Source of the DNA: Bacteroidales bacterium
GTDB taxonomy: Bacteria; Bacteroidota; Bacteroidia; Bacteroidales; Marinilabiliaceae
Length of the DNA stretch: 32,222 nt
Assembly: GCA_017539645.1 (NCBI GenBank)
Contig: JAFYCM010000063.1
Location: forward strand, 1-32,222
Direction of reading: 5' to 3'
Shown: one piece after another, positions 14,171 through 29,624 of the stretch
Numbering within the stretch: position 1 is the stretch's first letter
Layout: the number at the start of each line of letters is the position of its first letter
Made by a program: the position numbers and the translations under genes
Notes under the pieces: model-generated
Databases searched by the model: none
The model's input: the letters and a program-made list of their open reading frames with translations, nothing else
Told to the model about the DNA's origin: nothing

Positions 14171-14452
14171 ATGCAATTGCAGTCATTATCAGAGCGATAC
14201 GGCGTAGACAAACGAACGCTGCTGGAATATATTGGCGAGAACCACATAGCCATAGTGAAGATTGTGAAACGCCGTCTGCTCGTGGACGATGCCAAAAATT
14301 TTGTGGAGATAGCCAAGAAAATACAAGCCGTCGATCCACAAACGAAGGTGAGCCTAATATGTACGGACAACATCTGCTCGAAATCCGTTGCGCTGCTCGA
14401 ACAAAACAAGATTGACGTGCTGCTGCAAACTGACGAGATTGAAGAACGTTAG
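14171..14452 (+). CDS. Small protein with HTH-like N-terminus
   Basis: The 93-residue product is not recognised as a named family. Its first half (LSERYGVDKRTLLEYIGENHIAIVKIVKRRLLVDDAKNFVEIAKKI) reads like an excisionase/MerR-type helix-turn-helix followed by a small wing, suggesting DNA binding. The second half (KVSLICTDNICSKSVALLEQNKIDVLL) has an alternating strand-helix-strand look. It follows the DUF493 gene after 13 bases and is the last gene before the structured RNA region. The coding call rests on operon spacing and ordinary codon use. Confidence 0.65.
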   Translation: MQLQSLSERYGVDKRTLLEYIGENHIAIVKIVKRRLLVDDAKNFVEIAKKIQAVDPQTKVSLICTDNICSKSVALLEQNKIDVLLQTDEIEER

Positions 14453-14555
14453 AAATAACAAAATAGTAACATAACCACTAAATATTGACGAAATATAGAG
14501 AAATACGGTTAGTATAACATATTATAAACCAAGCGTTTACTTATTATTCGGTATC

Positions 14556-14701
14556 ATCCTAAAACCTGAGAAATTTTAGATAGTTCAAACTCGAATAAGT
14601 CAGTGAATGCCTGCGCGTATGCGTGGGCTTGACTTATCTGTTTGAACGGGCAGTCTCAGGGCCTTAGGATTGTGGATATTGTTCAAGTCCACTTTCTTTT
14701 T
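14556..14701 (+). ncRNA. Long-hairpin structured RNA, 6S-like candidate
   Basis: One long hairpin is formed by successive pairings: ATCCTAA (14556-14562) with TTAGGAT (14664-14670); CCTGAG (14565-14570) with CTCAGG (14655-14660); GTTCAAAC (14583-14590) with GTTTGAAC (14640-14647); ATAAGTC (14595-14601) with GACTTAT (14631-14637); and GCCTGCGC (14609-14616) with GCGTGGGC (14621-14628), closed by a GTAT loop. Between the second and third helices is a large asymmetric bubble (12 bases on the 5' side, 7 on the 3' side). A closing stem, central bubble and long terminal stem are the layout of 6S RNA, although this one is short. A terminator hairpin and T run follow. The strand is set by that T run. 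A 6S identity is inference; no clear promoter was found. Confidence 0.6.
14672..14701 (+). terminator. Terminator after the structured RNA
   Basis: A short stem, GTGGA (14672-14676) with TCCAC (14688-14692), is followed by TTTCTTTTT. It lies directly after the long hairpin and about 60 bases before the restriction gene ATG. Confidence 0.55.
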
Positions 14702-14760
14702 GCCCTAATCGATTGTCCGTCAGCCGAAAGCAGATAAACGAGCGCCTATACGTAGCGCAG

Positions 14761-17613
14761 ATGACACCACAGCAACAACAAACTGCTGCCGCTGAGTTTG
14801 CCGCATTTTGGGCAGACAAAGGCGACGAAAAGCAGGAGACGCAACGCTTTTGGATTCAGTTGCTTAGCGAAGTTTTAGGCATTGAGAATCCTACAAAATA
14901 CATCGAGTTCGAGAAACGCGTAAAACTCTCGCACACATCCTTTATCGATGCATATTTACCCGACACCAAAACGCTGATTGAACAAAAAGGCGCAAAAATC
15001 GACCTTCATCGTGCCTACGAACAGAGCGACGGCTCGACGCTGACGCCATATCAGCAGGCAAAACGCTACGCCGACGAGATGCCAAACTCGCTGCGCCCGC
15101 GTTGGATTGTGGTCTGCAACTTTCAGGAGTTTCTCGTCTACGACCTCGAAAAACCAGGCGCTGAACCCGAACAAATCTTTCTGAAGAATCTTGAAAAAGA
15201 GTACTACCGCCTGCAATTTCTTGCCGACGCTAAGCACGACTATCTGCGCCGCGAGGAGGAACTTTCGTTGCAAGCCGGCGTGCTTGTCGGCAAACTCTAC
15301 GACGCGCTCATCAAGCAATATATAAATCCCGACGAGAGTAGTCTGCGCTCGCTTAACATCTTGTGTGTCAGATTGGTATTCTGCCTGTATGCCGAAGATG
15401 CTGGGTTGTTTTCCACGCGAACGGCCTTTGAAGATTACCTGCGCACGTTTGCCGTGGAGAATCTGCGCGATGGAATAATAAAGCTCTTCAAAGCCCTCGA
15501 TACGCCTGAGACTCAGCGCGATAAGTACGACGAGAAGTTGAAGCCGTTTCCATACGTCAATGGCGGACTATTTCGCGACGAACAGATTGAAATTCCGCAC
15601 TTTACGCCCGAGATACTCGACGTCATTTGCAACCACTGCGCACCGTTCAACTGGTCGGATATCTCGCCAACCATCTTCGGCGCAGTGTTCGAGAGCACGC
15701 TCAACCAAAAGACGCGCCGCGAAGGTGGTATGCACTACACTTCGGTAGCCAATATTCACAAGGTCATCGACCCGCTATTTATGGACGAATTGAATGCTGA
15801 ATATCAGACGATTGTAGAGACGCGGCGAGCCTCGACTCTGCGGCAGCAATTGATTGATTTTCAGCAAAAACTCGGCAGCCTAAAAATCCTCGACCCAGCG
15901 TGCGGCAGCGGCAACTTCCTGACGGAGACATACTTATCGCTGCGCCGACTTGAAAACAAGGTGATTTCTACGCTCAACAAAGGCGAAAAGGTGATTGGTT
16001 TCGAGGATTTTATTCACGTGAAAATCAGTCAGTTCTACGGCATAGAGATAAACGACTTTGCCGTGACGGTGGCAAAAACGGCGCTGTGGATTGCCGAAAG
16101 TCAGATGATGGAGGAAACGGAGAAAATTCTCGGCATGAACCTCAATTTTTTGCCGCTCAAAACAAACGCATACATCGTTGAGGGCAACGCCTTGCGCACC
16201 GATTGGGCGACGCTGCAACCCATCGACGCCGATAGCGCACCAACCGAAGGCCTTTTCAGCGGCTTCACCACCCAAACAGACGGCGAACGACACGAGTACG
16301 ATTATATTATTGGCAATCCGCCGTTTGTGGGTGGGAAAATGATGTCTTCTGCACAGAAAGAAGATATGATTTCTGTCTTTGGTAAGAAATGGAAGAACAT
16401 AGGGAATATGGACTATGTGTGTTGTTGGTATAAAAAAGCAATTGAATTGTTGCAAGGGAATAAAACGCAGGCAGCACTCGTTTCAACCAATTCTGTATGT
16501 CAAGGACAAGCTGTTGCAGCATTATGGAAACCTTTGTACGAAAATTATGGTGTACAAATAGATTTTGCGTGGCGCACATTCCGTTGGGACAGCGAATCGA
16601 ATCAAAAGGCGCATGTGCATTGCGTTATTGTGGGATTTTCATGTGCAAATGAAGAGACGTTGCGCGCAACGTCTCTACAATCACGCCGCATTTTCAATGC
16701 CGATGGCACTATCATAAATGCACATAACATAAATCCATATTTGATTGATGCTAAAAATGTATTTATTGATAACAGGACGGAGCCTATTTGCGATGTACCA
16801 GAAATGACCTTCGGCAGTATGCCTAATGATGGTGGCAACTTCATTTTATTAGAAAACGAAAAGAATGAAATTCTATCGAAAGAGCCTAACTTAGAGAAAT
16901 TTATTCGTGTGTTTTTAGGCTCTCAAGAATTTATAAATAAAAAAATAAGATTTTGCCTATGGCTTAAACATGCAACTCCTAATGAAATAAAAAACAGTCC
17001 TGAATTATACCGAAGAGTTACAAATGTTCGCAAGTTGCGTTCCGAAAGCACCGCCGCACCAACTCGAGAAAAAGCCGATATTCCTCACCTTTTCTTTTTT
17101 GATTCGCAGCCTGAAAATGGAGATTATTTACTTGTTCCTGGTGTTTCTTCAGAAAAAAGAGAATACATTCCAATGGGTTTCCTTCATTGTAATGTGGTTG
17201 CAAGTAATCTCGTATATATTGTTCCCAATGCCAATCTATATCATTTTGGTGTATTAACCTCATCTGTTCACATGGCTTGGATGCGAGCAGTATGTGGACG
17301 CTTGGAGATGCGTTATAGATATTCTAACGCGGTTGTCTATAACAATTTCCCTTGGTGCAATCCGACAGACGAGCAAAAAGCACGAATAGAAAAGACCGCC
17401 CAAGCGATTTTAGATGCGCGTTCGTTGTTTCCAGAGTCGAGCCTTGCCGATTTGTATGATGAGGTGGCAATGCCGCCAGAACTCCGCCGTGCCCATCGCG
17501 AAAACGATAAAGCTGTTATGGCGGCATACGGTTTCGAGGCATCATTATCGGAGCAAGAGATTGTGGCGCGGCTGTTCGAGATGTACGAGAAGCTGCGGAT
17601 AGGAACTAAATAA
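14761..17613 (+). CDS. MmeI-like type IIL/IIG restriction-modification enzyme
   Basis: This single-chain protein combines endonuclease, DNA adenine methyltransferase and target recognition. From the ATG at 14761 it has 950 residues (MmeI has about 920); an in-frame TTG at 14713 would add 16 residues but lies within 12 bases of the upstream terminator. The N-terminal PD-(D/E)XK nuclease shows FIDAYLP (Asp63) and LIEQKG (Glu74, Lys76). A helical spacer follows. The methyltransferase has motif I DPACGSGNF (378-386) and motif IV NPPF (519-522), the gamma-class N6-adenine type. The C-terminal recognition region begins near FGSMPNDGGNF and ends with RYRYSNAVVYNNFPW. In MmeI-like enzymes one domain sets the specificity of both cutting and methylation, so no separate methylase is needed. 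A palindrome lies in the gene at 16653-16676, and the recognition region is AT-rich compared with the rest. Confidence 0.9.
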   Translation: MTPQQQQTAAAEFAAFWADKGDEKQETQRFWIQLLSEVLGIENPTKYIEFEKRVKLSHTSFIDAYLPDTKTLIEQKGAKIDLHRAYEQSDGSTLTPYQQAKRYADEMPNSLRPRWIVVCNFQEFLVYDLEKPGAEPEQIFLKNLEKEYYRLQFLADAKHDYLRREEELSLQAGVLVGKLYDALIKQYINPDESSLRSLNILCVRLVFCLYAEDAGLFSTRTAFEDYLRTFAVENLRDGIIKLFKALDTPETQRDKYDEKLKPFPYVNGGLFRDEQIEIPHFTPEILDVICNHCAPFNWSDISPTIFGAVFESTLNQKTRREGGMHYTSVANIHKVIDPLFMDELNAEYQTIVETRRASTLRQQLIDFQQKLGSLKILDPACGSGNFLTETYLSLRRLENKVISTLNKGEKVIGFEDFIHVKISQFYGIEINDFAVTVAKTALWIAESQMMEETEKILGMNLNFLPLKTNAYIVEGNALRTDWATLQPIDADSAPTEGLFSGFTTQTDGERHEYDYIIGNPPFVGGKMMSSAQKEDMISVFGKKWKNIGNMDYVCCWYKKAIELLQGNKTQAALVSTNSVCQGQAVAALWKPLYENYGVQIDFAWRTFRWDSESNQKAHVHCVIVGFSCANEETLRATSLQSRRIFNADGTIINAHNINPYLIDAKNVFIDNRTEPICDVPEMTFGSMPNDGGNFILLENEKNEILSKEPNLEKFIRVFLGSQEFINKKIRFCLWLKHATPNEIKNSPELYRRVTNVRKLRSESTAAPTREKADIPHLFFFDSQPENGDYLLVPGVSSEKREYIPMGFLHCNVVASNLVYIVPNANLYHFGVLTSSVHMAWMRAVCGRLEMRYRYSNAVVYNNFPWCNPTDEQKARIEKTAQAILDARSLFPESSLADLYDEVAMPPELRRAHRENDKAVMAAYGFEASLSEQEIVARLFEMYEKLRIGTK
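16653..16676. repeat. Perfect palindrome inside the restriction gene
   Basis: Arms AGAGACGTTGCG and CGCAACGTCTCT form a perfect 24-base palindrome followed by ACAAT. The outer bases and the trailing CTCTACAAT match the intergenic element at 28015-28045. It is read in frame as roughly EETLRATSLQ between the methyltransferase and recognition regions. Confidence 0.75.
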
Positions 17614-29455: not shown

Positions 29456-29511
29456 ATATCTATTGAATCTATGTTTATCTCTGTTTCCCATGTTATTTGT
29501 GCGAGATGTTC

Positions 29512-29556
29512 GCAAAAAAAGAGAGCTGCTCCAATCTGGAACAGCTCTTTTTTTAT
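29512..29556. terminator. Bidirectional terminator between trxB and the surface-protein gene
   Basis: The stem AGAGCTG (29522-29528) with CAGCTCT (29542-29548), plus an inner CCA/TGG, is flanked by a run of A on the left and a run of T on the right. It therefore has a T tail on either strand and serves both convergent genes. Confidence 0.8.
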
Positions 29557-29557
29557 A

Positions 29558-29624
29558 GCGTAAAGAGGAGAGCGTATAGTGCATATACATTAAGCTTTAC
29601 GCACTACTCTCTACTCTCCTTTAC
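29558..29624. repeat. Imperfect inverted repeat at the surface-protein gene end
   Basis: GTAAAGAGGAGAG (29560-29572) pairs with CTCTCCTTTAC (29614-29624), allowing a small bulge, and TAGTGC (29577-29582) pairs with GCACTA (29601-29606). The right arm overlaps the stop codon of the minus-strand gene. Confidence 0.45.

Follow-up and report, generated by a model that had tools for sequence, protein, structure and literature searches.

A conserved 5′ leader RNA upstream of an MmeI-type restriction gene in a Bacteroidales genome, a likely transcription attenuator of accessory genes

A folded RNA ahead of a restriction gene

Upstream of an MmeI-type restriction gene in a Bacteroidales bacterium lies a segment of DNA whose transcript would fold into a long rod, raising the question of whether it encodes a free RNA or a control element of the gene that follows. 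We examined this segment within a 32,222-nucleotide stretch of contig JAFYCM010000063.1 (the window) and in related genomes. A preliminary description, made from the sequence alone, had called it a well-paired hairpin with its own terminator, possibly a short 6S-type RNA, and had left open a role in controlling the adjacent gene.

Folding of positions 14540–14710 on the forward strand gave −56.4 kcal/mol, as compared with a shuffle mean of −37.6 kcal/mol (sd 3.8, z −4.93), and none of the 200 shuffles folded as well as the native sequence. The helices fall at the positions first described, which confirms the hairpin, with 40 rod pairs in the computed fold as against the 36 counted earlier. Since the reverse strand folds almost equally well (z −4.69), the strand of the RNA is not given by the fold alone, and we assigned it to the forward strand on the basis of the downstream genes, promoter-like motifs and U-runs of its relatives.

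The terminator proposed in the preliminary description stands in part. A hairpin and a T run are present, but the local 5′ arm is not the main partner of the 3′ arm, as 14685–14692 pairs with the rod strand at 14623–14630 with −19.2 kcal/mol and with the local 5′ arm with only −6.7 kcal/mol. A simple sigma-70 promoter and terminator scan returned nothing useful: the terminator after the rod (14672–14701) was missing from its output, and its single terminator match near the locus lies on the other strand (14758–14742).

The elements of the leader are collected in Table 1. The 5′ hairpin has counterparts in other copies of the RNA, since AGCGTT occurs in the 60 nt just 5′ of the core in 111 of 174 aligned rows as compared with 3 of 174 at −220 to −160. 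The spacer before the start codon could take part in a further alternative fold: by eye and in computed folds 14711–14719 can pair with 14647–14655, and the 3′ part of the spacer with the 5′ leader. The equivalent spacer of restriction-linked copies looks conserved, and complementary to the leader 5′ end and a strand of the bubble.

Table 1. Elements of the leader RNA and the gene that follows it (window coordinates)
Element	Position	Strand	Remarks
5′ hairpin AAG-CGUUUA-CUU, window version of the AGC-GUUU-GCU hairpin before the core	14531–14542	+	
Strand 1 (a), UUAUUCG	14544–14550	+	Potential early-fold partner 14592–14598
P1	14556–14562/14664–14670	+	Fold and alignments
P2, 5′ strand CCUGAGA	14565–14571/14654–14660	+	Conserved AAA and AAUUU at flanks; possible kissing loop in flank region
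P3, 5′ strand GUUCAAAC	14583–14590/14640–14647	+	Variable sequence, almost always paired
P4	about 14594–14601/14631–14638	+	Fold
P5	14609–14616/14621–14628	+	Fold
Strand 2 (e–f), CGAAUAAGUC and P5 5′ strand GCCUGCGC	14592–14616	+	Partner strand 1 or strand 3
Strand 3 (g), GCGUGGGCUUGACUUAUC	14621–14638	+	Partner upstream (rod) or downstream (terminator)
3′ strands of P3, P2 and P1	14640–14670	+	Conserved GGG and CC around P2′
Strand 4 (T), GUGGAUA...AAGUCCAC	14672–14692	+	14685–14692 complementary to 14623–14630; weaker local hairpin too
U-rich run, proposed intrinsic terminator	14693–14701	+	U-run also in relatives
Spacer between terminator and start codon	14702–14760	+	
MmeI-type (type IIG) restriction-modification enzyme with a length of 950 aa when read from this ATG	14761–17613	+	MmeI domains by Pfam: N, hel, Mtase (E 2.1e-86), TRD and C

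A family of leaders and the genes behind them

BLAST found one full copy of the RNA in the window's own genome and, among 61 genomes, clear relatives in three others of the genus (G002, G003 and G011). G003 carries three copies that are 73–79% identical to the window over the aligned part and precede unrelated genes. Short BLAST matches in 43 of the 61 relatives were set aside as mostly chance, an example in G058 folding unlike the family. A covariance model built from six copies (R1) gave 26 matches at E≤0.5, spread over 9 of the 15 genus genomes, and at the family level 12 of 71 genomes had matches at E≤0.1; a second model built from 34 copies (R2) gave 44 matches at E≤0.05 in 11 of the 15 genus genomes. 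With R2, matches were obtained at E≤0.01 in at least 148 of 393 genomes and at least 89 of 206 genera of the order, and at E≤0.001 in at least 53 of 395 genomes of the phylum, these counts being lower bounds because at most seven candidates were scored per genome.

Several copies per genome are frequent by the covariance model; the window's genome has seven R2 matches, the weakest of which (E 0.03) is near chance. Named carriers that the model confirmed are, among others, Flavobacterium johnsoniae CI04, F. pectinovorum, Chryseobacterium viscerum, Kaistella jeonii, Algoriphagus sp., Prevotella sp. and an assembly of Porphyromonas cangingivalis. When 25 of at least 80 loci found by a pattern scan were tested with the RNA model, 21 matched. 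No match to the model was obtained for the pattern hits outside the Bacteroidota (L235, L245), or for L234 and L303, the sequence of L303 being incomplete at its end. In many cases no more than a few hundred bases separate a copy from the end of its contig (for example in G052, G242, G148 and G215), which suggests that the sequence around the element is repeated. A downstream protein start is common to G003:C51/L232 and JAGCYH010000019.1, from Bacteroidales bacterium RGIG10233 of yak rumen, and the window's genus may live in the rumen.

Compensating base changes in related genomes, which the preliminary description had named as a check of the hairpin, are abundant. In an alignment of 34 copies (A3), 92.5% of cells are paired and 43 of 46 pairs show changes on both sides, and in the 85 rows found after model building (A4, two of them antisense shadows) the values are 91.8% and 45 of 46. 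Twenty copies from the phylum (A8) gave 93.7% and 42 of 46. These percentages are raised because the alignments were fitted to the covariance model; slid controls of A4 paired in only 35–42% of cells, and native pairing was reached by 0 of 500 shuffles in each case. Within A4, P2 is paired in 99.5% and P3 in 97.2% of cells, while the lowest values are those of the local terminator helix (68.7% in A4, 71.0% in A8). G–U pairs are common, UG being the commonest pair at one position of P5 in A4. Given the slid controls, the shuffles and the varied pair types in P1, P2 and P3, a conserved structure is the only reasonable reading. The earlier view of a structured RNA with a terminator is supported.

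The flanks of the family carry signs of transcription. In Bacteroidota promoters TANNTTTG is the −7 motif; the 168 upstream regions contain it 133 times (115 regions with one), as compared with 24.3 times in mononucleotide shuffles, and 103 of these 133 occurrences lie 41–120 nt before the core; over all 174 rows the motif is found 135 times versus 24.8 (sd 4.3) in shuffles. The window has no exact TANNTTTG at 14320–14545, where TAAATATTG is seen by eye at 14479–14487. A U-run follows the rod in 162 of 173 distinct copies (167 of 179 rows, the 179 rows representing 173 distinct copies), with a clear U-run absent in the remaining 11. ATG-initiated leader ORFs of at least six codons are depleted, being present in 61 of 174 rows as compared with 121 (sd 5.5) when the upstream sequence is shuffled; GTG and TTG starts were excluded from this count. 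A leader peptide of the trp type was rejected on this depletion.

The position of the RNA relative to genes is strongly biased. The copies from the order were the best-scoring ones, and 106 of 111 have their nearest downstream ORF on the same strand (four opposite, one none) at a median gap of 64 nt (n=106). The same holds for 38 of 42 genus and family copies (three opposite, one none), for 17 of 20 copies in the phylum set and for 19 of 21 in the named set, these sets overlapping in part. The ORF caller was crude, and in L058 chose a small opposite ORF inside a C5 methylase gene that itself starts 64 nt after the RNA. From the orientation and median gap of the order copies we conclude that the RNA is a 5′ leader, and a role in controlling the adjacent gene is the best-supported part of the preliminary description. 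The nearest upstream ORF has no comparable bias in the genus and family copies, being on the same strand in 20, opposite in 19 and missing in 3, and is more often opposite in the phylum (12 versus 7) and named sets (13 versus 6). In the order it is more often on the same strand (78 same, 27 opposite, 6 none), so that some copies may lie inside operons. At L186 two copies lie back to back, each facing its own gene.

Within the genus, 14 of 32 copies examined (of the 44 matches) precede restriction-modification or DNA-methylase operons. The downstream gene is of the MmeI type in L048 and L049 (in L049 by likeness to the window's protein) and encodes an N6/N4 methylase in L050, L059, L068 and L072, an N6 methylase in L066 and L067, a D12 methylase in L052, a C5 methylase in L058, an EcoRI-type methylase in L123 and a SNF2/ResIII protein with a PLD domain in L057; in L051 and L063 the first gene has no Pfam match and a methylase is encoded by the second. 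Other genus copies precede lipoprotein-like and BspA-type leucine-rich proteins.

In the order, we scanned the 106 first downstream proteins, each cut to 400 aa, along with 102 upstream proteins. The 25 most frequent Pfam families of the downstream set include LRR_5 (7), N6_Mtase (4), ResIII (3), N6_N4_Mtase (3), PKD_4 (3), Por_Secre_tail (3) and DNA_methylase (2), and its top 25 PADLOC families include type I, II and III methylases with up to four members each. The corresponding top 25 lists for the upstream proteins include DUF1016_N (6), HEPN (3), PIN (3) and DNA_methylase (1) by Pfam, and PDC-S02, of the DUF1016 family, in 6 of 102 by PADLOC. Since upstream neighbors also match defence families, the link to restriction genes may partly reflect defence-rich surroundings. 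Outside the order, the scanned downstream genes of L270 and L207 encode SusC-type TonB receptors, and about nine more receptor-like genes were seen by eye 227–479 nt after the RNA.

A tight coupling of the RNA to MmeI genes was rejected, as only 2 of 30 loci among the matches to MmeI homologues carry the RNA at E≤0.1, the window included and some loci being truncated where their contig ends. A 17-bit match (E 0.08) at G219:C13:195479–195623 (L375 480–624, minus) lies about 53 nt before an MmeI homologue on the same strand and may be a diverged third MmeI-linked case, which was left uncounted. The window's genome has a second MmeI-type gene, 76% identical, at a contig end (G000:C48:7–2727).

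Small genes recur around the RNA. Outside the Bacteroidales a divergent small gene often lies about 100–170 nt upstream (L209, L219, L281, L253 and L230, with L215, L216 and L293 added by eye), and a Cro/C1 HTH domain (HTH_3) was found in five of the seven scanned; the sequences differ widely between copies. In the Bacteroidales an HTH-like protein of 70–100 aa is sometimes the first after the RNA (L084, L086, L118, L065, L200 and L081); a Pfam HTH match is below cut-off in L084 and L118 and lacking in L065, the others being recognized by eye. Small proteins also recur directly after the RNA in different genomes (L209, L215 and L253; L210 and L223).

Competing pairings and a proposed transcription attenuator

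Inspection by eye showed that the segment ahead of the U-run has its parts in the same order as strand 2 (AAUAAG...GCUCACGC and GGAUAAG...AAGUUCCACGC), so that both are able to pair with strand 3. We compared pairing within and between copies in a swap test on 37 divergent copies with pairwise alignment scores below 0.62 of their length. Strand 3 pairs with its own strand 4 (g:T) at −21.3 kcal/mol and with swapped ones at −13.5 kcal/mol, and strand 1 pairs with its own strand 2 (a:e) at −10.3 versus −6.4 kcal/mol when swapped; in both cases 0 of 1000 permutations were as low. The positive controls P2, P3 and P5 behaved in the same manner, and a negative control (the P3 5′ strand with the P2 3′ strand) gave 26 of 1000 permutations, indicating a small background of shared composition. 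Two hairpins flanking P2 gave 8 of 1000 (H1) and 0 of 1000 (H2) permutations with small energy differences, which hints that the stretches around P2 might form two hairpins with kissing loops.

Among the 162 distinct copies with a U-run, the g:T pairing is better than the local hairpin by more than 3 kcal/mol in 157 (162 of 167 when rows are counted). The local terminator taken alone was discarded as an explanation because most copies have only a weak one (median −3.9 kcal/mol). L225 has an entirely different apical stem (GUUGCGUCC with UGGACGCG) together with a correspondingly changed terminator arm (GUUGCGUCC before the U-run), and L224 likewise has its apical stem and terminator arm changed together.

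We folded 167 rows stepwise, with pseudoknots excluded. When the transcript ends at e, strand 1:2 (a:e) is part of the minimum-energy fold in 155 of the 167, and strand 2:3 (e:g) is formed in all 167 once the 3′ strand of P3 has been made. At full length the minimum-energy fold keeps the rod in 160 of 167, and the terminator fold is worse than the rod fold by a median of 13.6 kcal/mol. Switching would thus need an unseen factor or kinetic trapping, and the rod should be the default with the terminator as an assisted or kinetic state.

We think it likely that the RNA, as 5′ leader of the restriction gene, acts by transcription attenuation, and attenuation of accessory genes is the best reading of the family as a whole. 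At the sequence level, the family has a predicted intrinsic terminator between promoter-like motif and start codon, although the window lacks the exact motif, and a predicted antiterminator; the two have one strand in common and are both conserved. As modeled from the folds, the attenuator is of a three-way type, and no leader peptide was detected for it. Strand 1 would pair first with strand 2; P3, P2 and P1 would then zip as the RNA emerges while strand 2 takes strand 3, giving the rod. With strand 3 held in the rod, strand 4 would be denied its partner, the terminator would be weak and transcription would enter the gene; the rod need not abolish the local terminator hairpin of the window (−6.7 kcal/mol). 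If the rod were blocked or delayed, strand 3 would pair with strand 4 beside the U-run and transcription would stop. We infer that termination happens and that the default (ON) state is the rod; the choice would presumably be set by a factor that binds close to the conserved loops on either side of P2.

The rod could instead bind RNA polymerase or a NusG-like factor and confer resistance to termination along the gene, in the manner of put or EAR RNAs. Downstream genes that are very diverse and in many cases long, nucleotides around P2 and in the rod that are alike across the phylum, and the depletion of leader ORFs all speak for such a function. We nevertheless regard it as unlikely, as the terminator arm of each copy covaries with strand 3, as it would for a local attenuator, and some of the downstream genes are short.

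That the place before genes is secondary, and that the RNA is a free small RNA of about 150–180 nt acting in trans, is somewhat less probable again. In its favor are the U-run, seen in 162 of 173 copies, and the promoter-like motifs 41–120 nt upstream. Against it are the downstream ORF, which in 106 of 111 order copies lies on the same strand at a median distance of 64 nt, and the covariation of terminator arm with rod strand within each copy.

An element acting at the level of DNA, such as a folded recombination site of the integron attC type, a palindromic repeat or a MITE, is very unlikely. One orientation to the gene, with the U-run on one side and the promoter-like motifs on the other, common G–U pairs and a second covarying fold that is sensible for a transcript outweigh the several copies per genome beside accessory genes, the strong folding of both strands, three antisense stretches that score weakly with R2 and the many copies near contig ends. 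Integron attC sites occur in arrays, 3′ of the cassette genes and alongside an integrase. The copies lie 5′ of genes and mostly on separate contigs, with one contig (L178) holding two copies 1.1 kb apart.

If the attenuator reading is extended to the whole phylum, the family might be a class of RNA switch through which one common cellular signal sets the transcription of restriction-modification and cell-surface genes together. We offer this only tentatively; if true, copies with alike control strands and copy-specific stems would let defence and surface genes answer the same cue. The restraint of acquired restriction systems from damaging a new host, or their activation, is mostly explained by controller proteins and promoters. 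An RNA attenuator before several restriction types, surface genes and receptors would mean that accessory genes of the Bacteroidota, a phylum in which gene control is little known, are under general control at the level of RNA.

Relation to known RNAs

A search of the window with all families of Rfam 15 at E≤5 gave no match on the RNA, and at gathering score nothing was found on the RNA in 20 genus-to-order loci and 20 phylum loci. The covariance-model check with Bacteroidales-1 (RF01693) suggested in the preliminary description gave no match in the window at E≤5, nor did Flavo-1 (RF01705), and neither model matched the RNA in the 20 and 20 loci at gathering score. Two matches lie elsewhere, a ceN81 snoRNA match below cut-off at 29505–29622 of the window, which was rejected, and a DUF805b RNA match exactly at gathering score in L176 (2077–2111, minus), outside the leader RNA. 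A conserved family this large without a library match suggests that many Bacteroidota 5′ leaders are unannotated.

For 6S RNA, RF00013 was over cut-off in none of 61 relatives, with one weak match (G039), while in a control it was found in 5 of 14 named genomes. RF01685 (6S-Flavo) gave only sub-cut-off matches, in 7 of 31 relatives and not in the window's genome, and none of these seven places is a listed copy of the leader RNA; the reach of this model is limited, as it matched 0 of 14 control genomes. The leader RNA resembles both 6S families in its rod with an internal bubble and in its similar size, but a polymerase mimic of the 6S type is practically untenable, since beyond the outline of stem, bubble and stem the Rfam 6S models find nothing at the locus at E≤5 and stay under cut-off in the relatives searched, and the RNA occurs in several copies per genome in cis, before same-strand genes; the earlier suggestion of a 6S-type RNA was therefore dropped.

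In the literature, a 6S RNA with pRNAs of Bacteroides thetaiotaomicron's own is described (PMC7366714), and Flavo-1 and Bacteroidales-1 appear among the Bacteroidota RNA motifs of Weinberg et al. 2010 (PMC2864571). For Flavobacterium psychrophilum, 64 structured 5′ regions are given, not all of which have an Rfam hit (PMC9723704), and the leader family could be among them; it may also be listed among the 3161 candidates in the supplement of PMC8040213. No description of the leader RNA was found among the articles listed by our literature search. The 77-bp inverted repeat of the Porphyromonas gingivalis capsule locus was judged different on the basis of its description (PMC3969353).

The attenuator layout is of a known kind, in a family without a match in Rfam 15 as searched. 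With terminator-controlling riboswitches the leader RNA shares a conserved folded leader, strand exchange and a terminator near the start codon, but it differs from described riboswitches in having no Rfam riboswitch match in the stretches searched and in downstream genes that suggest no single metabolite. The EAR and put antitermination RNAs are leaders of accessory operons or phages that favor transcription; as compared with them, through Rfam only, the leader RNA has its own terminator arm. In the layout of trp-type attenuators, strands 1:2, 2:3 and 3:4 compete and 3:4 is an intrinsic terminator. This strand competition and the 3:4 terminator are shared by the leader RNA, which is unlike the trp type in that ATG leader ORFs are depleted and the 2:3 fold is extended by three more helices.
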